Of a stretch of 35,231 nucleotides of DNA, positions 13,127 to 35,060 are shown piece by piece. Position numbers and translations under genes: made by a program. The notes beneath the pieces are model-generated. The model was not told the origin of the DNA. It ran no database searches and saw nothing but the letters and a program-made list of their open reading frames with translations. Each line of letters starts with the position of its first letter. Position 1 is the first letter of the stretch. This stretch comes from Cytophagaceae bacterium (GTDB taxonomy: Bacteria; Bacteroidota; Bacteroidia; Cytophagales; Cytophagaceae): positions 1 to 35,231 of the forward strand of contig JAIERY010000431.1 of NCBI GenBank assembly GCA_019746425.1. Direction: 5' to 3'.

Positions 13127-13161
13127 CTATGTACTATTGACTATGTACCGTGGACTCATAA
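13127..13161. repeat. heptad-word element F (CTATGTA CTATTGA CTATGTA CCGTGGA CTCATAA)
   Basis: Five consecutive 7-nt related words; minus-strand reading GTCCACG GTACATA GTCAATA GTACATA; overlaps the folC stop codon. Confidence 0.7.
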
Positions 13162-14448
13162 TTCCTCTATCTCCGCCACCACAAATGTACTTCCACCGAT
13201 AAAAATAAGATCATCGGAAGTGGCTTTGGATTTAGCGGCAGCAACTGCTTTTTTTACTTCAGAAATAACTTCTCCTTTCAGAGAGTATTCCTGTGCTTTG
13301 GAACAAAGAACATAGGCATCAAGTCCCCTTGTAATATCTGGCTTGCAGAAAAAGTAATAAGCATTTTTAGGAAGAAATGATAAAATGGAGGTTATATCCT
13401 TGTCGTTGACAACGCCCAATACAAAAAACAAATTTTTATAACGAATAGAGTTTATTTGTCCTACTATCTGCTTAATACCTCCTTCATTATGTACGGTATC
13501 ACAAATGGTCAGGGGCTTTTCATTCAACACCTGCCATCGGCCTTTTAGTCCGGTTAAGGAAACGACCGACGAGATACCTTTACGAATATGTTCTTCTGAA
13601 ATATTAAATCCTTTTTTGATAAGCATATCTATGGATGAAAGCACGCCCGCAATATTCTTGAGCTGATACTTTCCTGCTAGACCACAAACAAGGTCTTTGT
13701 ATTTTAAAACATTTCCCTTATAAACATCTGCCACCAATTTTCCCTGCTCGAGGCGATCATTTTTCAAATGATAAATCTCTGAAGCGGGAATTAAAAGACT
13801 GCTTTGCTGCTTTGCCTTTTTTAGAAAAACATGATTCACTTCGTCCTGGCATTCACTGATCACGACAGGTATATTGGTTTTAATTATTCCTGCTTTTTCA
13901 GAGGCAATTTCGGGCAAAGTATTTCCTAAAATCTTCTGGTGATCAAAGCTGATATTGGTAATGAGTGAAAGTAGTGGAGTAATAATATTTGTACTATCAA
14001 AGCGGCCTCCCAGGCCTACTTCGACCACTGCTATGTCAACTTTTTCATCTGCAAAATAATCAAAGGTAAGAGCTACCGTCATTTCGAAAAAAGAGGGCTT
14101 TATTTCTTCAAAGTCTTGCTTATGCTTTTTAACAAAATCCACTATGCGTTGAGCTGAAATATCCTTGCCATTGACTTTAATACGCTCTGTAAAGCTTTTT
14201 AAATGAGGGGAAGTAAAAAGTCCTGTCTTGTATCCTGCTGCCTGTAAAACAGACGCAAGCATGTGAGAGGAGCTTCCTTTACCATTGGTACCGGCAATAT
14301 GTACAGATTTGAATTTGTGCTGAGGATTACCAAGAAGAGCGCAAAGCTTGATCGTATTATCCAGAGAAGGCTTCAGAGCGGCTTCTCCAATGCGGTGAAA
14401 CATGGGAAGACTATTGTACAAATAGTCTATTGTTTCCTGGTAATTCAA
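13156..14448 (-). CDS. folC: bifunctional folylpolyglutamate synthase/dihydrofolate synthase
   Basis: 'HIAGTNGKGSSSHMLASVLQAAGYKTGLFTSPHLKSFTERI', 'VVEVGLGGRFDSTNII', 'NISFDHQKILG'. Confidence 0.95.
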   Translation of the reverse strand: MNYQETIDYLYNSLPMFHRIGEAALKPSLDNTIKLCALLGNPQHKFKSVHIAGTNGKGSSSHMLASVLQAAGYKTGLFTSPHLKSFTERIKVNGKDISAQRIVDFVKKHKQDFEEIKPSFFEMTVALTFDYFADEKVDIAVVEVGLGGRFDSTNIITPLLSLITNISFDHQKILGNTLPEIASEKAGIIKTNIPVVISECQDEVNHVFLKKAKQQSSLLIPASEIYHLKNDRLEQGKLVADVYKGNVLKYKDLVCGLAGKYQLKNIAGVLSSIDMLIKKGFNISEEHIRKGISSVVSLTGLKGRWQVLNEKPLTICDTVHNEGGIKQIVGQINSIRYKNLFFVLGVVNDKDITSILSFLPKNAYYFFCKPDITRGLDAYVLCSKAQEYSLKGEVISEVKKAVAAAKSKATSDDLIFIGGSTFVVAEIEEL

Positions 14449-14454
14449 AGGTGA

Positions 14455-15288
14455 TTATTCGGCTTTTAATTGAACAGTTACAGGTCCTTCGGAGAATGGT
14501 GGAACATTCCCATCATTGATTCGTTCTAAAGGCATTTTCAATATACTTACCCTACACATTTCTGCAGAGGAGACACTCACTCCATTATTCTGTAATACCT
14601 TTGCGCTTATTATTAGGCCATCATCATTTACTTTTATATAAAAAACTATTGAACCTCTTTCCTCAGGTAAATTTTTGGGAATAGGGTTATCCTTAAATCT
14701 CCATCCTCCAAGTCCTTCTCCGAAAGATATACCCCCGGTACCATTAGGATCATCCCCATAACCTGGATTACCGATTACTTTCTTGCCGTCTTTTCCAAGA
14801 GGATTTCCAGGGTCTCCTGGTTTGTTTTTATCATCGCCGGAAGGTTTGTTATTCTTGCCGGGAAAAAGAGTTTTCTTATCAACGGTAGGCTCAGAAGGCT
14901 TATCTACCGGTTTGGTTTTATCGGTCTTGGTATCGACTGGTTTTACTTTATCGTCTTTTGGTTTGTCGACAGGCACTGGTATAGCATCCTTATTATCAGA
15001 TACCGGTATTTCCGTTTCTGAAGAGGTAGGTTCAGTCGGTTCTTCAGGAGCTACTTCCAACGGTACAAGATTTTCCTGGCCTGAGTTAGGGTCCGAAGGA
15101 TTGAGATTGTTTGGATCACCAGTACCTGCATCCACCTCTCCATAATTCAAATCAACCCCTCCACCTAATTCACCAAGAGGAGGATCCATAGGTTTAAGCA
15201 CAAAAAGGAATAAGATCAGCAATAGCAATGCATGAAATCCTATGGAAATCGCTAAAGCTTCATTCTTATATGACTTTTCTACTCTCAT
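14455..15288 (-). CDS. energy transducer TonB-like protein
   Basis: Single N-terminal TM, Pro/Lys/Asp-rich spacer (KPVDTKTDKTKPVDKP), short TonB/AgmX-like C-terminal domain; directly follows exbD (overlap TAATG). Confidence 0.85.
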   Translation of the reverse strand: MRVEKSYKNEALAISIGFHALLLLILFLFVLKPMDPPLGELGGGVDLNYGEVDAGTGDPNNLNPSDPNSGQENLVPLEVAPEEPTEPTSSETEIPVSDNKDAIPVPVDKPKDDKVKPVDTKTDKTKPVDKPSEPTVDKKTLFPGKNNKPSGDDKNKPGDPGNPLGKDGKKVIGNPGYGDDPNGTGGISFGEGLGGWRFKDNPIPKNLPEERGSIVFYIKVNDDGLIISAKVLQNNGVSVSSAEMCRVSILKMPLERINDGNVPPFSEGPVTVQLKAE

Positions 15289-15686
15289 TATTTTTTCTTT
15301 GCCGCAGCAAGGATTTTAACATTTAACTCTCTGCCAATATCTAAAACTTCCGCTACATACTCCCAGTCTACCGCACCGTCAATATTGAGAACAACGGTAG
15401 GGTCCTGTCTGGTTCCTACGCGTTTTTGGATTTCTTGTTTCACCTGCTCCCTTGTAATTGGCGTATTTTCAATAAAATACTCCATTTCCTTATTGATAGT
15501 AAGCGTAAGAGGCTTGTCTTTTGTCTGAACCTGTACGCCTTGAGCTTTAGGCAATAATACCTTAATGACGTTGGGGTTTGCCATGGTAGAGGCAATAAGG
15601 AAGAATAATAATAAGAAAAACATAATATCATTCAGGGATGATGTGCTCACCTCCGATGTGTATTTGCTTTTTCTTCTGATATTCAT
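15288..15686 (-). CDS. exbD: ExbD/TolR biopolymer transport protein
   Basis: 'STSSLNDIMFFLLLFFLIASTMANPNVIKVLLPKA' TM with conserved Asp; operon context. Confidence 0.93.
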   Translation of the reverse strand: MNIRRKSKYTSEVSTSSLNDIMFFLLLFFLIASTMANPNVIKVLLPKAQGVQVQTKDKPLTLTINKEMEYFIENTPITREQVKQEIQKRVGTRQDPTVVLNIDGAVDWEYVAEVLDIGRELNVKILAAAKKK

Positions 15687-15694
15687 TGTTAGTC

Positions 15695-16396
15695 TTATTT
15701 ATTTTCCTGAAGAAGGTCTATAAACTCCAGCGCATTGCTTTCCATTTTATAAACTATTCTTTCTACCAATAAATTTAAATAATGAAATCCGATGTGCGCG
15801 ATGATCCCTACAATAAGACCAGCGGCACTGGTGATCATCTTCTCATATAACCCCTCTGAAATGACACTGATATTAATATTCCCTTCAATAGAAATATTAT
15901 AAAATATCCTGATTACCCCGCTGATGGTACCTACGAATCCGAGCATAGGGGCAATACCGGCGATAATCCCTAACACACTGATATTTCTTTCGAGCTTATA
16001 TACTTCCAGTTTACCTGTAGCTTCGATAGAAGATTCAATATCTTTCAAAGGCCTTCCGAGACGCATAATCCCTTTCTCGATCATTCTCGCAATCGGAGAA
16101 TCTGTCTGTTCGCACATCAGCTTCGCTCCTTTTACATCTCCCTGCACGATCAGGCCTTTTACTTTTTCCATCAGAATGGTGGTATCACGGGAGGCTTTCT
16201 TAATGGTGATAAAGCGCTCGATCATGATGTAGATGGCAATTAATGATAAAAGCAGGATCGGGATCATTACCCATCCTCCCTTCATTAAAAGCTCTAATAA
16301 GCTCATGGGATCTCCTGTAGCTTTTCCGGTTGTAGCAGCAGTATCTGCTACTACGCCCCCTACTTCAATCTGAAGAAATGTGATTAAAAAATTCAT
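15695..16396 (-). CDS. exbB: MotA/TolQ/ExbB proton channel family protein
   Basis: 'LGIIAGIAPMLGFVGTISGVIRIF', 'EGLYEKMITSAAGLIVGIIAHIGFHYLN'; start taken at MNFLITFLQ. Confidence 0.93.
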   Translation of the reverse strand: MNFLITFLQIEVGGVVADTAATTGKATGDPMSLLELLMKGGWVMIPILLLSLIAIYIMIERFITIKKASRDTTILMEKVKGLIVQGDVKGAKLMCEQTDSPIARMIEKGIMRLGRPLKDIESSIEATGKLEVYKLERNISVLGIIAGIAPMLGFVGTISGVIRIFYNISIEGNINISVISEGLYEKMITSAAGLIVGIIAHIGFHYLNLLVERIVYKMESNALEFIDLLQENK

Positions 16397-16413
16397 GCAA
16401 GTTGTTTGAATTC

Positions 16414-17385
16414 CTAATAAGTTAAAATCCAAAGAGATTTACCATATTGTGCTTCAAGCTCTGTGAGCTTTTGTTTAGCTGATTCTTTTGAATCAAAATC
16501 AGCTATGGCCACCCGGTAAAATTTCTTTTTGCCGTAAGGCTCGATCAGAGAAGCATTGACACTTTCGTTTTCAAATTTCTCTCTCAGCTTCATGGCATTT
16601 TCGCGGTTCTTAAATGATCCCGCAACAATAAAGAAACGTCCTGTCTGGGAAGTTATTATCTGGCTGCCGCTTGTTTCCTCTGCAACAAACTGAGAACTGT
16701 CTACCTGAGTAACCTGTTCTTTGACTGGCTCAGGCTTCACTTCTGCTTTATCTTCTTTATTAAATATTACAAATGGATTTATGCTGGCAAATGTAGCATT
16801 GTCCTTATTGAAATATAAAAATGTAGTGGCTCCGCCCAGTAATACCAATATGATCGGTATTATAATCAGCGCTGCCTTTGATTTTTTAGGCTGTCCATCA
16901 GCGTCCATATCCTCGACAGCCTTTTTGGTGGGCTGCCCGGCTTTAATGGGTTTATTCATAGTTATTGATTTTCTTTCTATGGGCTTAAAAATTAGTTCGG
17001 GCAGGCCGAAGCTGTCTTCGAGGTAATTCACTCCGAGATCCGGTTCAAATTCAAGATGGTTCTCTGTATTATAAAAAAATCTCCCTATGTCTTTAAGCTC
17101 CGCAAATTTCTTTTTGCTTAAAGACTCATTCAGGCTTCTGATAAAATTTTCAATTAATGATATCGCTTCTTCCCTGGAAACGTTTTCACCGGAAGACACC
17201 GCTTCAATAAGAAGTCCGTCATTGTTTTTAAGATTTTCATTGAAGGCAATACGGCGTGAAGGTGGTAAGAATTTATGAGTGATGGGATGTATATCGGCAC
17301 TCACATAATGAGTTAAAAATCCTCCGAAGCCGGGAACTATAACACATTCGTAATCAAACAATAAATCTCTTATATACTTTTCCAT
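16414..17385 (-). CDS. CCDC81-type HU-like domain protein with TM and C-terminal SPOR domain
   Basis: N-term 'MEKYIRDLLFDYECVIVPGFGGFLTHYVSADIHPITHKFLPPSRRIAFN'; TM 'ALIIIPIILVLLGGATTFLYF'; C-term SPOR 'RFFIVAGSFKNRENAMKLREKFENESVNASLI...YRVAIADFDSKESA'. Confidence 0.9.
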   Translation of the reverse strand: MEKYIRDLLFDYECVIVPGFGGFLTHYVSADIHPITHKFLPPSRRIAFNENLKNNDGLLIEAVSSGENVSREEAISLIENFIRSLNESLSKKKFAELKDIGRFFYNTENHLEFEPDLGVNYLEDSFGLPELIFKPIERKSITMNKPIKAGQPTKKAVEDMDADGQPKKSKAALIIIPIILVLLGGATTFLYFNKDNATFASINPFVIFNKEDKAEVKPEPVKEQVTQVDSSQFVAEETSGSQIITSQTGRFFIVAGSFKNRENAMKLREKFENESVNASLIEPYGKKKFYRVAIADFDSKESAKQKLTELEAQYGKSLWILTY

Positions 17386-19004
17386 CAATTAATAGCAAAT
17401 GAATAGGTTATACCTCCTATTACGTTAATTCCCTTTACAGGGTAATATAAGTATCTCTGGTATTTCTGGGATAGTATATTATTGACCTCAAGAAAAGCTG
17501 AGAATACATTTGAAAACCGGTAGTCAACTTTAAGGTTCAGATCAAAAATATTATCCAGTTTATATTCCTTTCCGGAAATATAATTTTTACCCATTAATCC
17601 GCTAATATAATAAATATCCGTTTCAATGTATATCTTCTTATGCAAATTGTAAGTTCCTATTAATGAGGCTGTAAAGTTAGGTCTATGCCATGGCTTCTCA
17701 AGAGCGCCGGTATTGTACTTAAAGTAGTTCAGGTTAAGTCCCGTTCTGAACCTGTCAGACACCTCATAAGCCAGTTCCGTTTTTAAATTCAATACGGTGG
17801 TATTACCAAAATCGTATAGGGCTGTAAACCTGGAAGAATCCTGCACAGAATTATTAAAAAAGAAGAGATTCTTATAGGTCATATGATTTAACTCTGCCTT
17901 ATAGTCCAGACCTGTTAAGTTACCTCTCAACCCAGCAAATAACTCTACCGGCTTGTTACTGTGATATACCGGCACATTGGGCTGCAGGTAGGGGGTTTGT
18001 GCGATGAATGATCTTAAAGTATTCTTCTCCAGTCCTCCGTCCATGCCTGCATAGAAGGTAAGTACATTTTCTACAGCAGTAAATTCTCCTTTTATTCTCG
18101 GATAAAGATGCACACCTGAAATCAAAGTATCATTTGTATAAGCCAGATTAATTCCACCGGTGATTTTAAATATATCTTTAGTATATACAAACGCAGGTCT
18201 CATCTGAAAGTAAATCCTGCCCAGAGAAAGGGAGTCCTGCTTATTGCTTACAGATACTACTGCATCTGTGATAATAGATTTTTCAGAATCAATTTTATAA
18301 CCTAAGCTCAGCTTAGGAAGATACTCATCCTCTTTTGCTTTAAAATGATCACTGAAGTTGAAGTAAGAGAAAGAAAAATTATAATTAAGCTTCGAATCTG
18401 AAGGAAGACTTTTTACGCCTCCGTGAAAGGCTATGGTGTTGAACAATTGCTTTAAAGTATCGTCTTCTGCCGTGATGCTGTGGTCAAAGCCATAAAAATT
18501 ATACCGCTCCCTGTTGTAAGAGATGATAGAATAAATTTCATTCTTCTTAGAGAAGTATCTCACATAGGCATCTATTCCATTCTGACTCAACCCTGAGAAT
18601 TTAACCGGTCCATTCTGAGAGGAGAAATGTTTCACGTGCAAACCATAGGCTAAATTTTCACTTCGCTTATTGTTCAGGAAAGCTTCAAGGTATGGTGTAG
18701 TATAATTTCCAAAACCTGCTTTCACATAATTACCGTACAGCTTTGCAAGTGTCGGTGGCTTAATGCGAACTATATCAATTTTGGTAGTCAGCTTTGGAAC
18801 TGCCAGTTCTACATCTTCCGTCTGATACTCCTGCGGCTTACCAGGCATTTCAGAGGGCTGCTCTGTAATTTTTTCAAAGTTCCTGTTACCCTCCGGTAAA
18901 TCTATTTTCTTATTGGTAACATGGATAAATGTGTTATCATCGATCTGTGCGAAAACAGAAAGTGAACAAGTAAAGACTATTAGAGTGCAGATAAGCTTAT
19001 TCAT
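17385..19004 (-). CDS. TonB-dependent-receptor-like outer membrane beta-barrel protein
   Basis: Signal peptide, long alternating beta-strand pattern, C-terminal 'FSNVFSAFLEVNNILSQKYQRYLYYPVKGINVIGGITYSF'; 8-nt overlap with upstream TPR gene. Confidence 0.85.
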   Translation of the reverse strand: MNKLICTLIVFTCSLSVFAQIDDNTFIHVTNKKIDLPEGNRNFEKITEQPSEMPGKPQEYQTEDVELAVPKLTTKIDIVRIKPPTLAKLYGNYVKAGFGNYTTPYLEAFLNNKRSENLAYGLHVKHFSSQNGPVKFSGLSQNGIDAYVRYFSKKNEIYSIISYNRERYNFYGFDHSITAEDDTLKQLFNTIAFHGGVKSLPSDSKLNYNFSFSYFNFSDHFKAKEDEYLPKLSLGYKIDSEKSIITDAVVSVSNKQDSLSLGRIYFQMRPAFVYTKDIFKITGGINLAYTNDTLISGVHLYPRIKGEFTAVENVLTFYAGMDGGLEKNTLRSFIAQTPYLQPNVPVYHSNKPVELFAGLRGNLTGLDYKAELNHMTYKNLFFFNNSVQDSSRFTALYDFGNTTVLNLKTELAYEVSDRFRTGLNLNYFKYNTGALEKPWHRPNFTASLIGTYNLHKKIYIETDIYYISGLMGKNYISGKEYKLDNIFDLNLKVDYRFSNVFSAFLEVNNILSQKYQRYLYYPVKGINVIGGITYSFAIN

Positions 19005-22000
19005 TGCTCTTTCCCTCCTTTTCTGCTACCTGGGCAAGTTTCTCTTTAGCCTTTGCGACCAGTTCCGTATCTGATGAATTATCGATGATTGAGTTTAAAG
19101 TTGCCTTTGCCTGGAAGTACTCTTTCTGCGCAATGAAGTTATCAGCTATCAGCAAAAACGATTTACCGATCCAGTCATCGTACTCAGAAAAATTATTATT
19201 GAAGTCGTACAAAGTCTCCAGCGACTGCTTGTATTTGCCTTGTTTATATTGAATCTCAGCAACAGCATACTGCGCCTCTGCCCCATATCTGTCCTTCGCT
19301 AAATTTACCGTATTCAGATAGTAATCGATTGCCTTATCATAATCCTGTTTGGAATAATAAATCCTTCCCAGATACAGCAAGGCTTTGCTTTCCGCATTGA
19401 GCGTGGTATTACCATAAGTCTGCAGTTCTTTTGCATAATAAATAGCAGAATCAGGCTTTGACTGATAAATATTGCTTTCGGTCAAACCGATCAAGCTGGC
19501 GATCTTATCCTTCTTCCCTCTGGCATTTGCATAAAGCTGTGAATAATAATATTTAGCAGTAAGGTAATTTGCCTTTTTAAAATGCATGTCTGCCAGTGTT
19601 GCAATGGATTTTACAAAATATAAGGGGTCTCTGGTCTCGACTACCTTCTCATAGGATTTGATACTATTCAAGGTATCTCCTGTCTGCAGATAAGCATCGG
19701 CCAGATAAAATTGCACCTCTGTATTGCTGGCATTATCAGGATAAGAATTCAGGAAATTTGAAAAAGCTTCTGCAGCCTGCTTAAACTTTCCAGCACTGTA
19801 AAGATTCTTCGCATCATTTAGTTTTGCGTTGACCAGCAGTGAATTTTTGGGATCTACTTTCTCCATTACATCAATCCACTTTTTAAATTCTTCCGGTCTT
19901 CCTGCCTTGTCATACGATTGTTGCAAACCTAAGAATGCATCCTGAGCTACAGGATGATTGATATAATTGCTAAGCACATTTTCATAATCGGCAATAGCTT
20001 CATTGTCCTTATTTAAATTAGTATAAACCTGCGCTCTTTTCACCAATGAATATGGAACATAAGGGCTTCCCGCTTTCTGATTGATGATAGTTGAAAAGCC
20101 TGTTAAAGTTTCATCATAATTGCCTTGCTGAAAGCTTAATTGTGCTTTCTCATAAATAGCATCGTCGTGGTAAAGTGACCTGGGATAATTTTTGATTACT
20201 ACATCAAGACTCCCTTTTGCTTCTGTAATCTTTTCTTTAATACCATAAACTACTCCTCTCTGATAATAGGCATAATCCAGGTCCAGGTTTTTCCCTCTGA
20301 TGGCTTCATCGTAATAACGAATTGCATCATCATAGTTTTTCGATTGATAATACAGATCGGCCAGTCTTAAAAGCGCGTCATCATAAAATAATTTATCCTT
20401 TGCATTCCTCAACCTCTCCACATAATTTTTAAAATGTGGAGAAGCCTTTTCATAATCTTTGGTATTGAAATATGCGTAACCTATTCCATACCGTGATTTC
20501 AGGTGATAAAGATTTTCATCATTGGTTTTCTGAAAGACTGTGCTGTAGCTTCTGATGGCATTGGTATAATCTTTCAAAAATGAATAAGCTTCGCCTTTCC
20601 AGAAATTGGAAGCGAGAAAGATGTCTTTATCTATTGGAAACTCCGATGATTTGTCAAACAACTGGATGGCGGTTTGAAATTCTTCATTGTTAAAATGCTG
20701 TACTCCGCTGTAAAATGCTACCCGCTGGTAAGCAGTATTGATACGAAGGCTTCTGACTTTCAAAGACTCAATATAAGTAAGCGCTTCAGAGTAATTGCTT
20801 GTCCGTAAAAAAGATTCGCTTAACAATTCCTGTACTTCACCGATGTGTTTGCTTCCGGGAAATTGTTTTGAAAAGGATTTTAATGCAGTAATCGCATCGT
20901 GAAAACGATGAATATCATAATTGACTTTACCATGAAGAAAGGCAGACTCTTCTGCTACTTCCTTATTAAAAGCAGTCTTGCTGGCAAGATCAAAGGCAGT
21001 AATCGCAAAATCCTTTTTACCTTTTTTCAGATAAGACAATCCAAGATAGTAAGCTGCTGACTGAGCAATAGAATCTTTGTTGCCTGCAATGGCTGAAAAA
21101 TCTTTGATGGCGTTGTCCATATCTCCCGTTTGATATTCGGAGTATGCCAGGCGATAAGTAATTTCTGGAGTAATTTTGGTTTTGTATTCAGTCGTGTATT
21201 TCTTAAAAAATTCAGCCGCTTTTTTATAATCTTCCTTTTTGAAATAAGAATCAGCCGTCAATAAAAAGATATCATCTTTCCCGTACAGCTTTGTATTATC
21301 TGTTTTAGACAATATACTTTCAGAATATTTTATCAGTTCATCATAATTCCCCTGCCAGTAATAAACATTGGCAATCATTACCGGAACCAACGGTTGATAA
21401 TTCTCATTTTGTTCCGCCTTCTTTAAGTCCTTCAGAGCTTCATCATACTTTCCATTCTTTAATTCTATATAACCAACATAGTAGCTTGCGGCATAAGTAT
21501 GCTTGTTCTCGGTAGATTTAATCTCGTTAAACAATGGTTCGGCCTTTTCAAATTGCTTTTCATTGAAATAGGAATAGGCGAGTTTGAAATTTCTTTCCAG
21601 CTTCTGAAAGGCAGAAAGTCTTTGCACGTCTGCTTTTTCCAGGTACTCTATGGCCTTTCCGTATTGTTTGTTATTGAAGTTGAAAGTACCCAGGTCATAA
21701 TATGCAAGGGCTGACTTGGAATGTTCAGGATGCGTAGCAATGAAGTTTTCAAAAAGAGCTTCAGCGTCGGCATTGAAAAGATTTAAAGCGCAGTATGCAA
21801 TGTAATACTCTGCGTCTATAGACTTTAAATCGTTTTTATTAAGATTGATGTATCGTTGAAAAAATTCGCGGGCTGCTCCATACTTCTCATGGTCAAGTAG
21901 CTCTAATCCGGTTCTGAATAACTCATCGTCTGAATTTTTAACAAGTGTATTCTGTCCAAAAAGCTGAAAAGTATATATAAAAAGAAAAAGTAAGAGAATT

Positions 22001-22014: not shown

Positions 22015-22060
22015 AACCTGTCTTTCAATAAAAACTGAGTTTTAAAAAAAATATTGTATT

Positions 22061-22161
22061 AATGTGCCAAAGTGTTAACGTGTTAAGGCATTAAAGTGTT
22101 TGAATGTTATCCTGTAAAAAATTGCCATTAGCACACTAACACTTTAACACATTTTAATGCA
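22061..22161. repeat. octad-word element A (AATGTGCC AAAGTGTT AACGTGTT AAGGCATT AAAGTGTT TGAATGTT ... AGCACACT AACACTTT AACACATT TTAATGCA)
   Basis: Six in-phase 8-nt words at 22061-22108 and four opposed 8-nt words at 22130-22161; right edge overlaps the holA stop codon. Confidence 0.8.
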
Positions 22162-23176: not shown

Positions 23177-23181
23177 GTGAC

Positions 23182-23262
23182 AAAAGTAAAGCAAAAAGCG
23201 TAAAGCGTAAAGCTTATAGGCTTAAAATATCCACATTAAGCTTTAAGCTTTACGCTTTAAGC
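23182..23262. repeat. heptad-word element B (AAAAGTA AAGCAAA AAGCGTA AAGCGTA AAGCTTA TAGGCTT ... ATTAAGC TTTAAGC TTTACGC TTTAAGC)
   Basis: Words in phase from 23182; opposed words from 23235; 16-bp perfect stem 23201-23216 / 23244-23259. Lies between divergent holA and tyrS starts. Confidence 0.8.
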
Positions 23263-23299
23263 TCTATATTTGGAGCTCGCTTTAAGGATATAATTGATA

Positions 23300-24571
23300 A
23301 TGAAAAATTTTGCAGCAGAATTGAAATGGAGGGGTATGATCCACGACATCATGCCTGGGACGGAAGAAGCTTTAAATAAAGAAATGACTGCCGGATATGT
23401 GGGTTTTGACCCTACGGCCTCTTCTCTTACCATTGGTAACCTGGTAAGTATCATGTTATTGGTTCATTTTCAGCAGGCCGGACACAAACCCATAGCCCTG
23501 GTGGGCGGCGCTACAGGTATGATCGGTGACCCTTCAGGAAAATCAGAGGAAAGAAATTTATTATCAGAAGATACTTTAAAACACAATCAGGAATGCATTA
23601 AAAAGCAGCTGGAAAAATTCCTGGATTTTAATTCAGGCAATAATAAAGCGGAGATTGTGAATAACTATGATTGGTTTAAGGAAGTCGGCTTCATTAATTT
23701 CCTTCGCGATGTAGGAAAGCACCTTACGGTAAATTACATGATGGCGAAAGATTCTGTGAAGAAAAGATTGGAAACCGGCATATCTTTTACAGAGTTTTCC
23801 TACCAGCTTTTACAAGGCTACGACTATTATCATTTATACAAACATAAGAGTTGCAAACTGCAAATGGGCGGCTCCGATCAGTGGGGAAATATCACTGCGG
23901 GAACAGAACTGGTAAGCAGAATGGCCAATGGAAAAGCATTTGCTATCACCACTCCCCTTATCACTAAAGCCGACGGCACCAAAATCGGTAAATCAGAAGG
24001 AGGCAATGTATGGCTTGACGCTAAGCTCACCTCTCCTTATGCTTTTTATCAATATTGGTTAAAAGTCTCCGATGAAGACGCTTCGAAGTTCATAAGAATA
24101 TTTACGCTTTTCAGAAAAGAAGAAATTGAGGCGCTGGAAGCCGAACATCAGAAAAATCCTGAAGTAAGGGTGTTGCAGAAAGCTTTGGCAAAAGATATTA
24201 CTGTAAGGGTACACAACCAAACCGAACTGGAAAGAGCCGAGCTTGCATCCGATATTTTATTCGGCAAGGGAGAAAAATATGATCTGCAGACAACTTTGAA
24301 TGCACTGGAAGGTGTAATTCCAGAAACGATAGTAAATGCTTCTGAATTTAAAGAAGCAGCCAATGTAACAGACCTGCTTTCAGTAGTAACGAAATCTGAG
24401 ATCTTCCCTTCCAAAGGAGAAGCCAGAAAAATGATCACGGGCGGAGGAGTTTATATCAATAAAAATAAAATCGCTACTCCGGATCAGAAGGTAGATTTTG
24501 AATTGCTGAACAATAAATACCTGCTGGTGCAGAAAGGAAAGAAGAATTATTATCTGGTGAAGGTAAATTAA
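23300..24571 (+). CDS. tyrS: tyrosyl-tRNA synthetase
   Basis: '[22 protein letters not shown]', '[18 protein letters not shown]', '[18 protein letters not shown]' (KMSKS-like), C-terminal S4 '[19 protein letters not shown]'. ATG at 23300; ORF track start is TTG. Confidence 0.97.
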
Positions 24572-24572
24572 T

Positions 24573-24600
24573 AGGCAATTGGCAAAAGGCATGAGGCAAT
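24573..24600. repeat. heptad-word element C (AGGCAAT TGGCAAA AGGCATG AGGCAAT)
   Basis: Exactly 4 x 7 nt, beginning 1 nt after the tyrS stop; contains CAATTG. Confidence 0.65.
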
Positions 24601-24679: not shown

Positions 24680-25459
24680 TTAAGGAACGAGAATACCTTT
24701 ACGTTCCAGCAATGGCTTTGATTCTTCAATCACCCTCAGCGTATATTCATAACCTATCTGGTAAATCTCCTTGGCTTTGGAAATTTCAAAAATACTATAG
24801 TCACAAAGTGCAGGCGGCTCAATAAAAATATCGCAGTACTTCACCCTGTCTCTTACATTCATACCAATAGCAAGATGGAATGTTCTTTCAATCATCGATT
24901 TAATAGAACTGATATTGTATTGGGTATTGGTAGGATTGGCATGAACTCCGATTATTAAATCAACCTCTCCTACCAAAGGCTCTACAGGTAAATTATTGAT
25001 AATTCCTCCATCTACCATCAGTTTATTATCAATCTCTATTGGAGCAAACAACACAGGCATGCAGGAAGAAGCAAGTATGGCTTTCACAAGATCTCCTTCT
25101 GTAAAAAAAACTGTCTTCCCTTCTCTTATATCCGCAGCGCTGATGTATAATTTCATAGGAAGATCTTCGAATCGCTGGACAGGCAGGTATAATTTATATA
25201 TCGCCATAAGCTTTTGAATATTCAGAAATCCGAATTTACTCCAGGCAGGTCTGAGGTATCTGAAAATTTTTGTTTTAACAAGAGTATCCAGAATTTCCTG
25301 GGGCTTCATTCCATAAGCATACAAGGCACCGATGATAGCACCTGAGCTCACACCCGATATGATGGTGGGCTTTATTCCTTTTTCCTCCAATGCAGCAAGC
25401 GCCCCAAGATGGACAACTCCTCTTGCTCCTCCTCCCGATAAAGCGACACCGATTTTCAT
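24680..25459 (-). CDS. patatin-like phospholipase
   Basis: 'LSGGGARGVVHLGAL', 'GVSSGAI' (GxSxG), 'MVDGGIINNLPVEPL' (DGG). Start at MKIGVALSGG; the ORF-track N-terminus is translation of element D. Confidence 0.93.
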   Translation of the reverse strand: MKIGVALSGGGARGVVHLGALAALEEKGIKPTIISGVSSGAIIGALYAYGMKPQEILDTLVKTKIFRYLRPAWSKFGFLNIQKLMAIYKLYLPVQRFEDLPMKLYISAADIREGKTVFFTEGDLVKAILASSCMPVLFAPIEIDNKLMVDGGIINNLPVEPLVGEVDLIIGVHANPTNTQYNISSIKSMIERTFHLAIGMNVRDRVKYCDIFIEPPALCDYSIFEISKAKEIYQIGYEYTLRVIEESKPLLERKGILVP

Positions 25460-25468
25460 AATATTAAT

Positions 25469-25509
25469 GTCGATAGTCCATAGTCTTAGTCTATCGACCA
25501 TGGACTGAT
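25469..25509. repeat. heptad-word element D (GTCGATA GTCCATA GTCTTA GTCTATC GACCATG GACTGAT)
   Basis: 41 of the 49 nt between the MBL stop and the patatin start; one word is 6 nt; GTCGATAG/CTATCGAC 8-bp stem. Confidence 0.7.
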
Positions 25510-26354
25510 TATAAAATATCTCTAAGGTTAAATGATTCTTTCATCCTCACTCCTTTTTCTGTATGCTGTACATTACAACATTCAATCATAGGGTCATGTT
25601 CGAAGAATAAAAAGTAATTTTCTGCAGCGGCTTTATTTAAAAAGTTTTCCTTTTCCTCCATAGTAAGCAAAGGACGTGTATCATAAGCCATTACATAAGG
25701 CAAAGGTATGTGCCAGGAAGAAGGGAAAAGATCGGCTACATAGGCAATGGTTTTATCTTTATATCGTATATGCGGAATGATCTGCTTCTCAGTATGACCG
25801 TCAACACTTAAGAAGCCTATATTGTTAAATGGCTTCTGTGTAGCCTGGTCTAAAAATTTCAGCTGTCCGCTTTCCTGTAAGGGAAGAATATTATCTTTCA
25901 GAAAACTTGCTTTCTCTCTGGGATTAGGATCTGCTGCCCACTGCCAATGCTGCGAATGAGACCAGTAGGTTGCATTCTTAAATGTGGGAACAATCCTTGA
26001 CCTGTCTTCATTGTATTTCAAAGCTCCTCCGCAATGATCAAAATGAAGATGTGTCAGAACCACATCAGTAACCTGATCTGGAGAATAACCGGCATTTTGT
26101 ATGGAACCTATCAACGAATCTTCCCCATGCAGGTAATAAAAGCTGAAAAATCTTTGATCCTGTTTGTCTCCCAATCCTGTATCAATGAGAATTAACCTGT
26201 TGCCATCTTCAATCAGAAGACATCTCATGGCCCAGGTACACATATTGTTTTCGTCAGCGGGATTTAACTTTTGCCAGATGGATTTGGGAACAACGCCAAA
26301 CATGGCGCCTCCATCTAACTTAAACATGCCTGTGTTGATGACGTGTAGTTGCAT
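25509..26354 (-). CDS. metallo-beta-lactamase-fold hydrolase
   Basis: 'VVLTHLHFDHCGGAL', 'LILIDTGLGD', 'SVDGHTEKQIIPHI', 'FLFFEHDPMIECC'. Start at MQLHVINTG; the ORF-track extension lies in element E. Confidence 0.93.
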   Translation of the reverse strand: MQLHVINTGMFKLDGGAMFGVVPKSIWQKLNPADENNMCTWAMRCLLIEDGNRLILIDTGLGDKQDQRFFSFYYLHGEDSLIGSIQNAGYSPDQVTDVVLTHLHFDHCGGALKYNEDRSRIVPTFKNATYWSHSQHWQWAADPNPREKASFLKDNILPLQESGQLKFLDQATQKPFNNIGFLSVDGHTEKQIIPHIRYKDKTIAYVADLFPSSWHIPLPYVMAYDTRPLLTMEEKENFLNKAAAENYFLFFEHDPMIECCNVQHTEKGVRMKESFNLRDIL

Positions 26355-26357
26355 AAA

Positions 26358-26417
26358 AGTCGACGGTCCACAGTCGACAGTCATCAGACTGTGGTCTGTG
26401 GACCGTCGACTATGGAC
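26358..26417. repeat. heptad-word element E (GTCGACG GTCCACA GTCGACA GTCATCA GACTGTG GTCTGTG GACCGTC GACTATG GAC)
   Basis: Eight consecutive 7-nt words each beginning GTC/GAC; hairpin 26358-26373 / 26396-26411 (16 bp perfect), 3x3 internal loop, ACAGTC/GACTGT stem, ATCA loop. Fills 60 of 67 nt between accA stop and MBL start. Confidence 0.9.
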
Positions 26418-26421
26418 TTAT

Positions 26422-28841: not shown

Positions 28842-28850
28842 TTTTATCGA

Positions 28851-28883
28851 AAAAAAAGGCTGCCATTTCAGACAGCCTTTTTT
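28851..28883. terminator. bidirectional rho-independent terminator
   Basis: AAAAAAGGCTG ... CAGCCTTTTTT between convergent genes. Confidence 0.85.
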
Positions 28884-28898
28884 ATTTTATATTATTAA

Positions 28899-29024: not shown

Positions 29025-29174
29025 CTTCCTCCTCATTTATCATTCTCTTCTTAAATAACTATGAGGTATAAAAATTGATTTTAAAATACATTATATTACT
29101 GAAAATCAAGTTGTTATATACATATTTTATCTGTAAGATATTATAAGTATTTTTTAGATTTTAGTATTCTGAGA

Positions 29175-29279
29175 ATGAAAAAAATAAAAGCGGGAATCAT
29201 TTGGCGGCGGCGCTGCAGGCTTTTTTGCAGCCATCAATTGTGCAAAGCCAATAAGGAAGCAGAGATTATTATTTTATAG
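29175..29279 (+). pseudogene. N-terminal remnant of an HI0933/BaiN-type FAD/NAD(P)-binding oxidoreductase
   Basis: Across two apparent frameshifts reads MKKIKAGII..GGGAAGFFAAINCAKANKEAEIIIL (Rossmann GxGxxG) then stops. Confidence 0.6.
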
Positions 29280-30026
29280 ATAGCACTGTTTCTCTAAGTA
29301 AGGCGACATGGCAGTAGCAGGTCTTCTGCCTTCTATATCGGCATCAGCTTTTTCTAATTTTGAATCGTTGTAAGAAAATCCTGCAATTATATTCAAGCCA
29401 TTGATAGGATTGGCGATCACTTCTGCCTCAAACCCTTTGCTTAATTGAGTTCCATCCTGAATCGAGAGGGTAGGATTAGCAGCATAAGGACGAACAAGGT
29501 CTTTTACTTGAATATGGTAATAACTAATCGTGCTGCTTAATTTGCCTTTAAAGGCATCTAATTTTACACCCCCTTCTACTTGATTTGCTTGTTCAGGTTT
29601 AAAGATTTTACCTTCAAAGTCTTTTCCTGTCTTATTGGTAAACCCATTTTGATAATTCGCAAAAAGTGATACCTTATCTTTTACTGGCTGAAATACTAAG
29701 TCAAATTTTGGTGAGAATGCGGTTTGGTAATATTCTCCAGTATATTTTCCTGTGGCTTCATTAAAACTACCCATGTTGGCAAAATGATCCACACGAATAG
29801 CTGCCGAGGCAATGATGTTGTTTGTAAGGTTTATAACATCTGAAACGTAAGCGCTGTAAGTGGTGGTTTTAAATTCATAAGGCCATGTCCAGAAACCATT
29901 TTGCAATGTAGCATTAAGATTATCCCTATTAAAATTACTGTAATTAGATATAGTGCCGTTTTTCTGTATTGTATCAAAATCGGCTCCATAGAAAAGTTGA
30001 TTTGAATTTTGATGAAAAAAAATCAA
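29274..30026 (-). pseudogene. truncated TonB-dependent siderophore receptor fragment (missing both ends)
   Basis: Reads 'LFYGADFDTIQ..', 'YVSDVINLTNNIIASAAIRVDHF', 'FSPKFDLVFQPVKDKVSLFANYQNGFTNKTG', 'EGGVKLDAFKGKLSSTISYYHIQVKDLV'; no signal peptide, plug or barrel terminus. Confidence 0.8.
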
Positions 30027-30187
30027 AACCTGCTAAGAATCTATTTCTTGAAAACATGGAAAAAATTATAGAAGGAAAAGTTTTTGAAGATGCTATTAAT
30101 ATTAGTGATCTGGCTGAGAAAATGTATAGACCTTCTTCAGAGGAGCTAAAGAAAACAATACAATCAAAAGATACAACTGCATTTTAA
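30005..30187 (+). pseudogene. AraC-type HTH domain remnant (response-regulator C-terminus-like)
   Basis: 'NFDEKKSKPAKNLFLENMEKIIEGKVFEDAINISDLAEKMYRPSSEELKKTIQ' resembles the start of AraC HTH (FLEK.....E....D..F.V.DLA..M..S...LYRKL) and then diverges. Confidence 0.5.
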
Positions 30188-30300
30188 AGGGATACCATCT
30201 TATGATTAATACCTGCAACAATTGTCATGCAGCATCGAATCATGAATTTGTGAAGATCATTATCCCCCAAAAGCCTTCTTTTACGAATCAGGAATATTAG
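30181..30300 (+). pseudogene. C-terminal remnant of a CxxCH haem-binding cytochrome-like protein
   Basis: Frame reads ILKGYHLMINTCNNCHAASNHEFVKIIIPQKPSFTNQEY*; one CxxCH motif and no upstream gene body. Confidence 0.5.
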
Positions 30301-30425
30301 TTGCTTAGTAATTTATAAATCGTAAGTTCAATGATCTTTACCGGTAATTTTTTACCGGGATTAGGGACAGATATATTAATAGAATAAGATGGAAGATAAT
30401 CCGGTATCAAATTCAATATCTTTTC
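30297..30425 (-). pseudogene. C-terminal remnant of an unidentified protein
   Basis: Minus-strand frame ...ILNLIPDYLPSYSINISVPNPGKKLPVKIIELTIYKLLSN*; no intact gene upstream. Confidence 0.3.
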
Positions 30426-30558
30426 ATAAGTTTAATTGAGGAGATTGGGAATGTAGAGGAAAAGAAAACATTATCTCTATGGAAGCATGTTGATTTTCTT
30501 TCAATTCAGGTTTATAATCCGTAAGATCTGTATTGCATAATTTAAAATTGACAATTCC

Positions 30559-31620
30559 TTAATCTATTTCAATCACCACATTGGGAGACACCGGATGTCC
30601 TACACAGGTAAGCACAAAGCCTTGCTGTATTTCCTTATCTGATAACCCATCCGGATCATTGAGATGCACTTTACCACTCACGCATTTTCCCATACAGGCA
30701 GTACACATACCGCTCTGACAAGAATAAGGAAGGTCTATATCAAGATCGAGAGCAGCCTCCAGTATGGATTTATTGGGCGGCACTGCAAATTTATATTCCG
30801 TGCCCTGGTAAATAATAGTTACTTCCTGAGAATTGCTTTGACTGGCAGCCACTACTTCTCCAGATGGTTCAGGAGAAGATGAGGAAACAAAACTTTCTTT
30901 TCTGATCTTATCTTTTGGAACATTTAAGATATGCAGTCCTTTGTTCGCTTCATCCATCATTCCCTCCGGTCCGCAGATAAAATATTCAGCAGCAGCAAAA
31001 TCAAACCTTGGAAAAGTCTCTAATAGTTTAATTACTTCCGACTGACTCAATCTTCCTTTATGAGAATTCCAATTGTAAGAAGGCTGACTTAAAATATGAA
31101 TGACAAAAAATCTTGACGCGTATCGGGATTGTAATTCTTCAATTTTCTTTTTAAATATTATGGAGTCTTCATTTCTGTTTCCATAGATAAGATACACTTT
31201 ACTGTCCGGTTCACCCGCAAGCAACGCTTTAGCAATACCCATTAAAGGAGTAATGCCGCTGCCCGCACCAATCAAAACAATATTTCTTTTATTTTTTAAG
31301 TTTCTCTCAATGGTGAATGTACCCATCGGCTGCATCACTTCAATGCTGTCACCGATCTTGACTTTATCAGCCACATAATTGGAAACTTTACCATTGGCTA
31401 CTCTTTTCACAGTAACTGCAGGAAATTCATCTACGCCGGGTGCGGTACATAAAGAATAAGATCTCCTTATTTTCTCTCCGTTGATAGTAAGGATCAAAGT
31501 TAAAAACTGCCCTGGCTTATAGTTTAATTTATCCTTTCCCGGATGCTCAAAAACCAGCGTAATAGCCTCTGCTGTTTCCTTTATTATTTCTCTTATTTTT
31601 AAATTAAAATACTGGCTCAT
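30559..31620 (-). CDS. PaaE-like FAD/NADPH ferredoxin reductase with C-terminal 2Fe-2S ferredoxin domain
   Basis: 'RRSYSLCTAP', 'IVLIGAGSGITPLMGIAKALL', 'YFICGPEGMMDEA', 'LPYSCQSGMCTACMGKCVSGKV...VLTCVGHP' (CxxxxCxxC..C). Confidence 0.93.
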   Translation of the reverse strand: MSQYFNLKIREIIKETAEAITLVFEHPGKDKLNYKPGQFLTLILTINGEKIRRSYSLCTAPGVDEFPAVTVKRVANGKVSNYVADKVKIGDSIEVMQPMGTFTIERNLKNKRNIVLIGAGSGITPLMGIAKALLAGEPDSKVYLIYGNRNEDSIIFKKKIEELQSRYASRFFVIHILSQPSYNWNSHKGRLSQSEVIKLLETFPRFDFAAAEYFICGPEGMMDEANKGLHILNVPKDKIRKESFVSSSSPEPSGEVVAASQSNSQEVTIIYQGTEYKFAVPPNKSILEAALDLDIDLPYSCQSGMCTACMGKCVSGKVHLNDPDGLSDKEIQQGFVLTCVGHPVSPNVVIEID

Positions 31621-31868
31621 GCTCCAACCTTATTTAAAGAATATGCAAAGAAAAACAATTTGACTTAATCAAAGAATTTTATGATCCAATAATCTTTCTA
31701 ACCTTAAAAAAATTATAATGCCAATATCACTAATCTGGTTTTTTTAATACAAGTATATAAATTATATACTATTCATTTTCAGATACTTAATACAGCAAGC
31801 TTTTAATTTACCTTGATTTTCAATTTGAATTTTGCAAAATTGTATACAAAATCAATCAATATCTATAT

Positions 31869-33611
31869 ATGTACAGGATTTTATTCATTCTATTATTCAT
31901 TTCTCTTCCCCTTGCTTCTTATTCTCAAAAGAAAAAAGCCGAGCAGTTTTATGAAAGCGGAGTAATGAAGTTTGAATCAAAAGACTATTCCGGAGCGATC
32001 GCAGATTTAACGGAAGCCATACAATTAAAATCCGGATATGCAGAAGCTTATCTAAAACGCGGAGTTTGTAAAAGCTGGCTGGGAGATAATAAAAGCGCGC
32101 TCGAAGATTTGAATGAAGCGGTGAAATTAAAACACAGCGCCGAAGCCTATTTTGAAAGAGCTTATGTAAAATATTTATTATATGAATACGAAGGAGCAAT
32201 AACTGATTTTAATAAAGTCATAGAATTAAAACCCGATTATAAAGACGCTTACTTCAACAGAGGCCTTGCTAAATATGAATTCCAGGATTACATAGGCGCC
32301 CTGTCAGATAATACTAAAGTAATAGAACTAGATCCCAATTATACTTATGCCTATTACAACAGAGGACTGGCAAGGTATGCCATGAAAGATTATAAGGGAG
32401 CATTATCTGATAACAGGCAAGTGCTGAAACTGGATCCCTCCTATCAGAAAGCTCACTACCAGATCGGATTATGTCACTACAATCTGGGAGAGTATGAAGA
32501 AAGCATCAAAGCTTATGACATCTCTATTGAATTAAATCCTAAATATGAGAATGCTTTATACAACAGAGGATTGGCCAAACATTACAATAAAGATTACGCA
32601 GGCGCTATATCAGACTTTTCAAAATTACTGGACATGAATCCTAAAGATTATGAGGCATATTACAGACGCGGTCTTGCGAAATATCTTTTGAATGATTTTA
32701 AAGGCAGTGTGGCTGATTATGAAAAATGTCTGCAGATAAATCCAGAGTTCGAAAAAGCAAAAACAGAACTATCCTTTGCCTCTGCCGAAGCGAAAAGAAG
32801 TCTTGAAACCACTAATACAACGAAAGAAGCGGAGAATATAAATATTGATATTAAGATGCCCCAGATATGGGCTGTTGTAGTAGGTGTTTCCAACTATAAA
32901 GACCCTAATATGAATCTGAAATTCGCAGATAAAGATGCTACGGATTTCTATAATTTCCTCAAGAGTCCTGAAGGAGGCGCATTATCCGATGATCATGTAG
33001 TGCTTCTTACCAATGAAAAAGCTACAAGAAGCAATATCATCAAAGCGCTGAATGAGAAATTTTACAGAGCCTTTGAAGATGATATGGTAATACTATTCTT
33101 CGCAAGCCACGGCCAGCCTGACCCTGTAGGAAATGAAGTTTACTTTTTAAGTCATGATGCTGAGTCAGACAACCTTGGAGGTACTGCAGTATCGCAAATA
33201 GATATTGAAAAAGTATTTACAAGAACCAAAGCAAAAAAGAAAATTTGGATAGCTGATGCATGCCATTCCGGTGGCGCAGGTTTACAGGTAAGGGCAAGTC
33301 ATTCTGCTTTAACCAACAAGCTCCTTACTGAAATAGCAAATTCCAACAATGGAATGGCTATGTTCACCGCCTCTTCCAGCAGTGAATATTCTTACGAAGA
33401 CAGCAAATGGGGAGGTGGGCATGGAGTGTTTACTCATTACCTGTTAAAAGGAATGAAAGGAGAAGCCGATAAAGATAACAATGGATTGATAGAAATAAGA
33501 GAGTTATATGAGTATGTTTACAGACAAGTCTCTAATGATACCAATGGTCAGCAGCATCCGGAACTTAAAGGAAGCTTCGATAATAAATTACCAATAGCCG
33601 TTACAAGATAA
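31869..33611 (+). CDS. secreted TPR-caspase (peptidase C14) protein
   Basis: Signal peptide MYRILFILLFISLPLASYSQ; seven or more TPRs; C14 domain with 'MVILFFASHGQPD' (His) and 'KKIWIADACHSGGAGL' (Cys). Confidence 0.93.
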   Translation: MYRILFILLFISLPLASYSQKKKAEQFYESGVMKFESKDYSGAIADLTEAIQLKSGYAEAYLKRGVCKSWLGDNKSALEDLNEAVKLKHSAEAYFERAYVKYLLYEYEGAITDFNKVIELKPDYKDAYFNRGLAKYEFQDYIGALSDNTKVIELDPNYTYAYYNRGLARYAMKDYKGALSDNRQVLKLDPSYQKAHYQIGLCHYNLGEYEESIKAYDISIELNPKYENALYNRGLAKHYNKDYAGAISDFSKLLDMNPKDYEAYYRRGLAKYLLNDFKGSVADYEKCLQINPEFEKAKTELSFASAEAKRSLETTNTTKEAENINIDIKMPQIWAVVVGVSNYKDPNMNLKFADKDATDFYNFLKSPEGGALSDDHVVLLTNEKATRSNIIKALNEKFYRAFEDDMVILFFASHGQPDPVGNEVYFLSHDAESDNLGGTAVSQIDIEKVFTRTKAKKKIWIADACHSGGAGLQVRASHSALTNKLLTEIANSNNGMAMFTASSSSEYSYEDSKWGGGHGVFTHYLLKGMKGEADKDNNGLIEIRELYEYVYRQVSNDTNGQQHPELKGSFDNKLPIAVTR

Positions 33612-33617
33612 AGACTT

Positions 33618-33666
33618 CAGTTGGCAATTGGCAGTTAGCAATTGCCAACTGCCAATTGCCAACTAA
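33618..33666. repeat. heptad-word element G (CAGTTGG CAATTGG CAGTTAG CAATTGC CAACTGC CAATTGC CAACTAA)
   Basis: Seven consecutive 7-nt words; hairpin AGTTGGCAATTGGCAGTT (33619-33636) / AACTGCCAATTGCCAACT (33647-33664), 18 bp perfect. Confidence 0.9.
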
Positions 33667-33682
33667 TTATATTTTTAAAAGA

Positions 33683-35032
33683 ATGAATCTAAACGAACTA
33701 ACAGCCATCTCTCCTATTGATGGAAGATATAGAAAACAGGTAAACAGTCTGGCTCCTTATTTTTCTGAGTATGGCTTGATAAAATACAGAGTATTGGTAG
33801 AAATAGAATATTTTATCGCCCTATGTCAGACTTCCCTTCCGCAGCTTAAATCTTTTTCTAAAAATAAATTTGTTGCGTTACGTGATATTTATCACAACTT
33901 CAATGAGGCTGATGCGAAAAAAATTAAGGAGCTTGAGAAGACCACCAATCATGATGTAAAAGCCGTTGAATATTTTATCAAGTCAAAATTCGAAACATTA
34001 GGCGTCGCGAAATACCAGGAGTTCATACATTTCGGATTAACCTCGCAGGATATCAATAATACAAGCATCCCTCTCCTGCTGAAAGATGCTTTGCAAAAAG
34101 AATTGCTTCCTTTGATTCTACAGGTACAAAAAGAATTAAAAAGTCTTTCGGTTAAATGGAAATCTGTTTCCATGCTGGCAAGAACTCACGGACAGCCGGC
34201 TTCTCCTACCAAATTGGGAAAAGAGATCCTCGTGTTTCATGAGCGGGTAGAAAAACAATTGGAGCTTCTGAAAACCATTCCTTATTCTGCGAAATTCGGT
34301 GGAGCAACGGGTAATTTCAATGCACATTATATAGCCTATCCTAACATTGACTGGGTAAAGTTTGCCAATAACTTCGTCAACAAAACTTTAAAGCTTGACA
34401 GAAGTCAGCACACTACACAGATCGAACATTACGATAATCTGGCTGCGCTCTTCGATAATCTTAAGAGGATAAACACTATTTTCATTGATCTTGACCGCGA
34501 TATGTGGCAATATATTTCCATGAATTACTTCAGGCAGAAAATTAAAGAGGGAGAAGTCGGTTCATCCGCCATGCCGCATAAAGTAAACCCTATTGATTTT
34601 GAAAACTCAGAAGGAAACTTAGGGATTGCCAATGCCATTTTAGAACACCTTTCGGCAAAGCTTCCCATTTCAAGACTACAAAGAGACCTGACAGACTCTA
34701 CTGTTTTGAGAAACGTCGGAGTACCTGTTGCACATATTGTAATCGCAATGAGATCTTTGTTAAAAGGAATTTCAAAACTGGAACTCAATAAAGATGCCAT
34801 CGATGCAGATCTTGAAGAGAACTGGGCGGTAGTAGCAGAAGGAATTCAAACCGTATTAAGACGTGAAGGATATCCTAAACCTTATGAAGCGTTAAAAGCT
34901 TTAACGCGCACCAAAGAAAAAATTACCGCTGCTGCTATCAAAAAATTCATTGATACACTTGATGTAAATGATGCAGTGAAAAAAGAATTGCATAGCATAA
35001 CACCACAGAGTTATACGGGAATAAAATTTTGA
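33683..35032 (+). CDS. purB: adenylosuccinate lyase
   Basis: 'LTAISPIDGRYRKQV', 'HFGLTSQDINNTSIPLLLKDAL', 'ARTHGQPASPTKLGKEI', 'GSSAMPHKVNPIDFENSEGNLG'. ORF-track start is a TTG inside element G; ATG at 33683. Confidence 0.97.
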   Translation: MNLNELTAISPIDGRYRKQVNSLAPYFSEYGLIKYRVLVEIEYFIALCQTSLPQLKSFSKNKFVALRDIYHNFNEADAKKIKELEKTTNHDVKAVEYFIKSKFETLGVAKYQEFIHFGLTSQDINNTSIPLLLKDALQKELLPLILQVQKELKSLSVKWKSVSMLARTHGQPASPTKLGKEILVFHERVEKQLELLKTIPYSAKFGGATGNFNAHYIAYPNIDWVKFANNFVNKTLKLDRSQHTTQIEHYDNLAALFDNLKRINTIFIDLDRDMWQYISMNYFRQKIKEGEVGSSAMPHKVNPIDFENSEGNLGIANAILEHLSAKLPISRLQRDLTDSTVLRNVGVPVAHIVIAMRSLLKGISKLELNKDAIDADLEENWAVVAEGIQTVLRREGYPKPYEALKALTRTKEKITAAAIKKFIDTLDVNDAVKKELHSITPQSYTGIKF

Positions 35033-35060
35033 ATCGTGAATATTGAATTATGAATTCATA
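35030..35060. repeat. heptad-word element H (TGAATCG TGAATAT TGAATTA TGAATTC) ending in palindrome TATGAATTCATA
   Basis: 4 x 7 nt in phase; the first three nt are the purB stop TGA; TATGAATTCATA at 35049-35060 is a perfect 12-bp palindrome. Confidence 0.7.

Follow-up and report, generated by a model that had tools for sequence, protein, structure and literature searches.

The window (the whole stretch of DNA analysed, 35,231 nt of contig JAIERY010000431.1 from a Cytophagaceae bacterium, assembly GCA_019746425.1) carries eight intergenic sites, at 13127, 22061, 23182, 24573, 25469, 26358, 33618 and 35030, at which short degenerate words are repeated back to back beside genes such as folC, holA, tyrS, accA and purB. 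A sequence-only reading of the window had described them as one dispersed class sharing a grammar but not a sequence, with locus-specific words of 7 nt, or once 8 nt. All eight sites were found to be present, and their arms are as follows.

Site A, 13127 to 13158, minus strand: single arm of GTC words (plus-strand letters CTATGTA CTATTGA CTATGTA CCGTGGA CTCA) that overlaps the folC stop codon (13156-13158); lag 7, P=0.0025.
Site B, 5' arm, 22061 to 22108, plus strand: 8-nt words, AAAGTGTT-like; lag 8, P=0.004.
Site B, 3' arm, 22128 to 22153, minus strand: TTAGCACACTAACACTTTAACACATT, directly adjoining the holA stop (22154).
Site C, 5' arm, 23188 to 23219, plus strand: AAAGCNT words between the start codons of holA (minus) and tyrS (plus); P<0.0005.
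Site C, 3' arm, 23236 to 23266, minus strand: TTAAGCTTTAAGCTTTACGCTTTAAGCTCTA.
Site D, 24572 to 24599, plus strand: single run of four GGCA-core words right after the tyrS stop (24569-24571); P=0.001.
Site E, 5' arm, 25469 to 25488, plus strand: GTCGATA GTCCATA GTCTTA, weak alone; P=0.076.
Site E, 3' arm, 25491 to 25506, minus strand: CTATCGACCATGGACT, adjoining the stop of the MBL-fold gene (25509).
Site F, 5' arm, 26359 to 26386, plus strand: GTCGACG GTCCACA GTCGACA GTCATCA; P<0.0005.
Site F, 3' arm, 26387 to 26418, minus strand: adjoins the accA stop (26422).
Site G, 5' arm, 33619 to 33639, plus strand: AGTTGGC AATTGGC AGTTAGC, 7 nt past the stop of the TPR-caspase gene (33609-33611); P<0.0005.
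Site G, 3' arm, 33640 to 33664, minus strand: AATTGCC AACTGCC AATTGCC AACT, with no spacer to the 5' arm.
Site H, 35030 to 35057, plus strand: single run TGAATCG TGAATAT TGAATTA TGAATTC, the TGA of its first word being the purB stop codon (35030-35032); P=0.0005.

Seven of the eight sites were significant against dinucleotide shuffles of the local region (P 0 to 0.004; lag 7, or lag 8 at 22061), whereas the site at 25469 was too short to reach significance of its own, yet fits the genome-wide GTCNAYR pattern. The switch of strand midway that had been proposed to form stems was seen at five of the eight sites (22061, 23182, 25469, 26358 and 33618), which are two-armed inverted elements, the other three being single runs. 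Anchoring at a stop codon, claimed for seven of the eight, held statistically across the genome but only as a tendency, as the divergent site at 23182 illustrates.

A census of 81 stretches (1.55 Mb or 37% of the window genome, with genes called by a hexamer model) measured self-match at each lag for every intergenic region (n=959) in comparison to shuffled sequence. Lag 7 was found in 115 of the 959 regions vs 4.0 in shuffles, lag 8 in 35 vs 3.8 and lag 14 in 60 vs 2.8, while lags 4–6 and 9–13 stayed at background level in the same regions and only 5 of 4812 coding segments contained lag-7 arrays. In the window genome GTCNAYRGTCNAYR occurred 117 times in comparison to 7 for its reversed control. 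The median gap from element to stop codon was 5 nt where random placement gave 24, 85 of 142 elements were located ≤10 nt from a stop, and element density per intergenic region was 18% in convergent, 19% in tandem and 6% in divergent regions, the last being three times poorer. Both the genome-wide excess at lags 7 and 8 and the enrichment at gene 3' ends on which the sequence-only reading had staked its proposal were thus borne out. The view that the sites form one dispersed intergenic class, whose members follow a common grammar but have words specific to each locus, was likewise supported.

The usual element is an inverted repeat of about 80–120 nt in which each arm repeats a degenerate word of 7 or 8 nt in tandem, and most elements possess two arms. 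Clustering of the window genome sample gave about a dozen words, including the 7-nt words TGAATNN, TGAGTNN, GTCNAYR, TTGRCAR, AARGCNN, TYAGANN, ACGANNN and others, and the 8-nt words AARGTTNN, AATTGTTN and AAGTGTT, so that words do differ by locus but the vocabulary is wider than was first noted. Arm order was invariant, as all 57 two-armed regions from seven families had the word first and its complement second and none had the reverse; a similar count was obtained with more families, one small family there merely being written on the other strand. Four heterotypic pairs of facing arms, drawn from different word families, obeyed the same polarity, and across distant species the GTC word kept this order in 25 cases and reversed it in 5, all of the latter in long near-perfect arrays. 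Of the 76 informative elements of the window genome, 60 had a 5' arm in which G outnumbered C (60:16), and so did 27 of 28 elements of another genus (27:1), in contrast to other hairpins from the same kind of intergenic region, for which ratios of 81:90 and 21:49 showed no G-bias or the opposite. The GTC family is not G-biased in composition, yet it keeps the word-then-complement order.

Variation within words was confined, with core columns mostly 93–100% constant and one to three columns nearly free. Identical neighbouring words numbered 25 where 26.3 were expected from words at other loci (at larger word distance one pure 11-word array dominates the identity counts), and since neighbours are no more alike than words from elsewhere, this argues against plain slippage, one of the generators first suggested, although a common generating process for all sites is supported. 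Facing arms of TGAAT, AAAGTT and GTC elements matched no more closely than arms swapped between loci, whereas those of TTGGCAR and TTAGA elements matched somewhat better. Perfect palindromes (L307:4546) and pure arrays (L020:7798) also exist, though they are few. Perfect inverted copying of arms was considered as a general rule and rejected by this arm comparison, though perfect cases exist. Word order differed from copy to copy, with no conserved full-length copy, no defined ends and no common sequence. The neighbour and facing-arm results thus show that arms are mostly separate draws from one word pool.

Vocabularies also differed among species. TGAATNN triplets were present in 52 of 148 genomes and abundant in many of the order's genera, though not in every one, and in genus g6 of the window's family (G005, G011, G015) TGAATNN was absent while three-fold TAAGTNN occurred 43–63 times per genome. 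The latter had been the reversed control pattern, and its enrichment in genus g6 itself marks another vocabulary. Correlation of TGAAT counts with gene content was dropped because species without TGAAT use other words. Most of the listed matches to the GTC word came from Bacteroidota and Cyanobacteria, with a few from other phyla, and the GTCNAYR word itself was present in Nostoc, Anabaena, Fischerella, Microcoleus and Tychonema. The GC-rich genus g22 of the same order, which we take to be Hymenobacter-like, uses the same AT-rich TGAAT words, which indicates that the base composition of the host does not dictate the word. Within genus g8 (G007, G012) few neighbours were conserved, elements were few and no site was informative.

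Genus g22 allowed turnover to be followed at orthologous sites. Lag 7 was detected in 26 of 244 spacers vs 0 in shuffled sequence (400 kb, four g22 species), and among spacers of 60–200 nt elements were found in 21 of 109 tandem, 0 of 32 convergent and 0 of 31 divergent ones, with stem free energies at z of about -4.5 to -5. When orthologous spacers were compared across nine g22 species, every rplU-rpmA spacer measured 77–113 nt and mostly consisted of a word stem, but the words differed: TGAATNN (one species), TTAGTGC-like (three species), TTAGCTG (one species) and TGAAT/TGAGT (two species). The atpA-atpG and iscS-iscU spacers and the spacer upstream of truA behaved alike, with site, length and stem kept and the word often different, and some species had other palindromes instead at atpA-atpG. 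Orthologous tandem spacers were co-occupied above chance (p=0.001, p=0.011), usually with different words, and words at one orthologous site differed beside proteins that were 99% identical, while a single species tends to draw on the same word for several of its sites (TTGATTG in G047, AATTAAG in G138). At iscS-iscU, G088 and G138 share a word, and here both arms were almost identical and the loop different. Other orthologous spacers were filled in one species and near-empty in a relative (138 vs 9 nt; 240 vs 0 nt; 88 nt vs a 4-nt gene overlap). Tandem spacers of g22 (L303:2936, L305:8012, L307:2869) also hold two further long palindromic repeats, TGTCATTGCGAGG... and TGTCATCCTGAGC..., which are sometimes nested between word arms or occupy the position that a word element has in the sister species.

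The explanation that we tentatively prefer, at a little short of an even chance, is that templated copying of low processivity, acting from arm to arm and from one like-worded element to another, maintains the class at the level of DNA. Templates would be switched while a hairpin is repaired or replicated, with the 5–6-nt core as annealing seed and one step of 7–8 nt copied per switch, by which the arms would become mosaics of the genome-wide word pool and the vocabulary of a site could be overwritten while stem and length persist. Selection would exclude elements from genes and divergent promoters, and would tolerate, or perhaps favour, a stem between co-transcribed genes. The restriction to lags 7 and 8, the polarity, the G-biased 5' arm, the non-local sampling of words, constant cores, in-place word replacement and co-occupancy all support templated rewriting, as do arms kept with the loop replaced, the polarity of heterotypic elements, AT-rich words in a GC-rich genus and the stem free energies of g22. 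Several points weigh on the other side. No enzyme or intermediate was identified, the shared word pool is the one observation that points to copying in trans, and template copying alone leaves the G-biased polarity unexplained. Moreover, the words shared by TTGGCAR and TTAGA arms, together with the perfect palindromes and pure arrays, indicate that slippage and palindrome birth contribute, and turnover was seen in g22, another genus of the order than the window genome's own.

The main rival, which we consider doubtful, is that the stems function in RNA as processing, stabilizing or termination hairpins between co-transcribed genes, where any stem would serve and words could drift freely. The restriction of g22 elements to tandem spacers in the 60–200-nt range, the occupation of the same sites across species by a word stem or an unrelated palindrome, and the conservation of arms but not loop at iscS-iscU are in its favour, and the tandem restriction and conserved arms speak for some constraint in that genus. 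If stems act as RNA, mismatches leaving G.U on the sense strand of tandem regions should exceed those leaving A.C; a weak excess was present in g22 (40 vs 22, p=0.03), but the window genome showed none (62 vs 79, p=0.18). Arms of different families that do not pair obey the same polarity, and the spacers between arms, which extend up to about 400 nt, sometimes hold tRNA genes or ordinary terminators, which argues against a simple terminator. The listed elements, when read individually, had mostly AT-rich arms and no regular U tract as an intrinsic terminator would have, and ordinary terminators occurred apart from the elements as well as between arms. Selection for a stem would also leave constant cores, the 7/8 periodicity and the shared vocabulary unexplained. 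The general 3'-end pairing function in RNA that had been suggested for these sites was therefore not upheld, given the lack of G.U excess in the window genome, the heterotypic arms and the content of the spacers.

Alternatively, a word-writing activity, dedicated or co-opted, might lay species-specific degenerate 7/8-nt words on both 3' ends at gene borders and rewrite them over time, which we regard as unlikely; if true, this would be a sequence-imposing process of DNA synthesis undescribed so far in bacteria. The inward, G-biased geometry of the elements matches that of two telomeres joined head to head. In the more specific form of this reading, which appears distinctly unlikely, breaks at gene borders would be mended by extending both 3' ends with G-biased words and then joining them, which would yield this geometry, and an existing hairpin would be a fragile site that is repeatedly rewritten. 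Such end extension would account for the absolute inward polarity, the extended strand being the G-biased one, and for heterotypic arms and word replacement in place. On the other hand, the GTC family is not G-biased, no template RNA is known and Rfam gave no match within the window. The reverse transcriptase domain RVT_1 was absent from 5 of 15 element-bearing genomes (G012, G088, G047, G126, G075), and Ku, found in 16 of 148 genomes, was absent from the element-rich G088, G047, G076, G094, G134 and G150, so that reverse transcriptase and Ku with non-homologous end joining were both rejected as requirements.

Ordinary replication slippage, in which long simple sequence repeats of 7–8-nt units expand, decay by mutation and are tolerated only between genes, is very unlikely to explain the class. 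It is consistent with the known tendency of bacterial repeats to favour units of 7 nt (cited in PMC4679880) and with the few perfect arrays (e.g. L020:7798), but not with neighbouring words that resemble each other no more than words from other loci, with mutation limited to certain columns, with strict inverted polarity or with words common to different loci and phyla. Least of all do we expect REP/RAYT-like or MITE-like palindromes moved by a transposase, since the filled and empty spacers of related species (138 vs 9, 240 vs 0 and 88 vs -4 nt) and the presence of Y1 transposase domains in 14 of the 15 genomes searched for them are set against variable word order without a conserved full-length copy or defined ends, and the search for Y1-type transposases that had been proposed for the window genome returned five weak matches (G000:C250, C205, C293, C314, C338), four of them interrupted by internal stops.

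Bacterial heptamer repeats have been on record since about 1990, and slippage has been the usual explanation. In cyanobacteria, the short tandemly repeated repetitive sequences (STRRs), heptanucleotide arrays known from Calothrix and Nostoc, are described as direct repeats that each have a single consensus. Our elements resemble them as dispersed intergenic tandem heptamers, and the GTCNAYR word itself is found in cyanobacteria among the matches listed, but polarity, vocabulary exchange and word replacement, all seen here, are to our knowledge not part of the STRR descriptions. The remark that no named family was known to match these sites does not hold, as such repeats are known as STRRs, long simple sequence repeats, the repeats of the Nostoc trnL P6b stem and TAACTGA arrays. 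The excess of dispersed intergenic 7-nt tandem units over shuffled and coding sequence (115 vs 4.0; 5/4812) is that expected of a heptamer class, while the near-identical units within an array expected of slippage were lacking (25 vs 26.3), a few pure arrays aside. We consider that the class belongs with the cyanobacterial STRR and Nostoc trnL-P6b repeats, as a variant of that kind.

A close parallel, and the best-studied case, is the P6b stem of the Nostoc trnL intron. It is built of degenerate heptanucleotides belonging to Class I (TDNGATT) or Class II (NNTGAGT), either of which has repeatedly taken the place of the other, and the paper gives the origin of these classes as unknown (PMC4476775). 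Shared with it are a stem of degenerate 7-nt words whose arms are complementary in the constant letters (57 two-armed regions here), wholesale word replacement at a fixed site (here at the rpmA, atpG, iscU and truA sites of g22), and a word, Class II being the same as our TGAGTNN family. Unlike that single site in a group I intron, the present class occupies more than 100 intergenic sites with many words and is placed by gene ends. TAACTGA direct repeats occur in Beggiatoaceae, Cyanobacteria and some Bacteroidetes, with larger heptamer assemblages in Bacteroidetes (PMC4679880); these are likewise intergenic heptamers of Cyanobacteria and Bacteroidetes among others, but consist of one exact word in direct orientation, mostly just upstream of start codons. 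Heptamer arrays of GGGAATC and GGGGA(C/T)T in Xanthomonas and Nostoc (PMC4692102, which also cites the cyanobacterial STRRs) are similarly kept between the same genes with strong variation in sequence and length among close species and occasional inverted pairs, but differ in using one G-rich, quadruplex-forming word. REP, BIME and REPIN elements with their RAYT transposases are also short intergenic palindromes near gene ends, whereas the elements here have 7/8-nt periodicity in place of a conserved palindrome; the GTAG/CGTC tag was not searched for. None of the papers searched, all of them open-licence full texts, was found to describe the genome-wide rules or an exchange of words between species of one genus at operonic sites.

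Gene callers are misled by these elements because false starts arise inside the arrays. At 25457-25501 and 26328-26384 of the window, gene calling can give the patatin-like and MBL-fold open reading frames spurious N-terminal extensions (MVDRLRLWTIDINI..., MTVDCGPSTF...) which are GTC words in translation, and annotated databases probably hold such spurious protein tails. Elsewhere in the window, a fragment like the C-terminal part of a TonB-dependent receptor (29274-30026) lies in gene-poor surroundings and is possibly a broken gene, and protease genes of TPR-CHAT type (7095-10022) and TPR-caspase type (31869-33611) were assigned from sequence only.

In summary, the rules described here, namely word lengths of 7 or 8 nt only, inward polarity, a G-biased 5' arm, a constant core with free letters, unlike neighbours and in-place swapping with site, length and stem retained, limit the mechanisms that could be at work and lend themselves to tests in relatives that can be cultured. 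The same words occur in Bacteroidota and Cyanobacteria. The findings extend a type of repeat that was known but unexplained, and its origin becomes testable.

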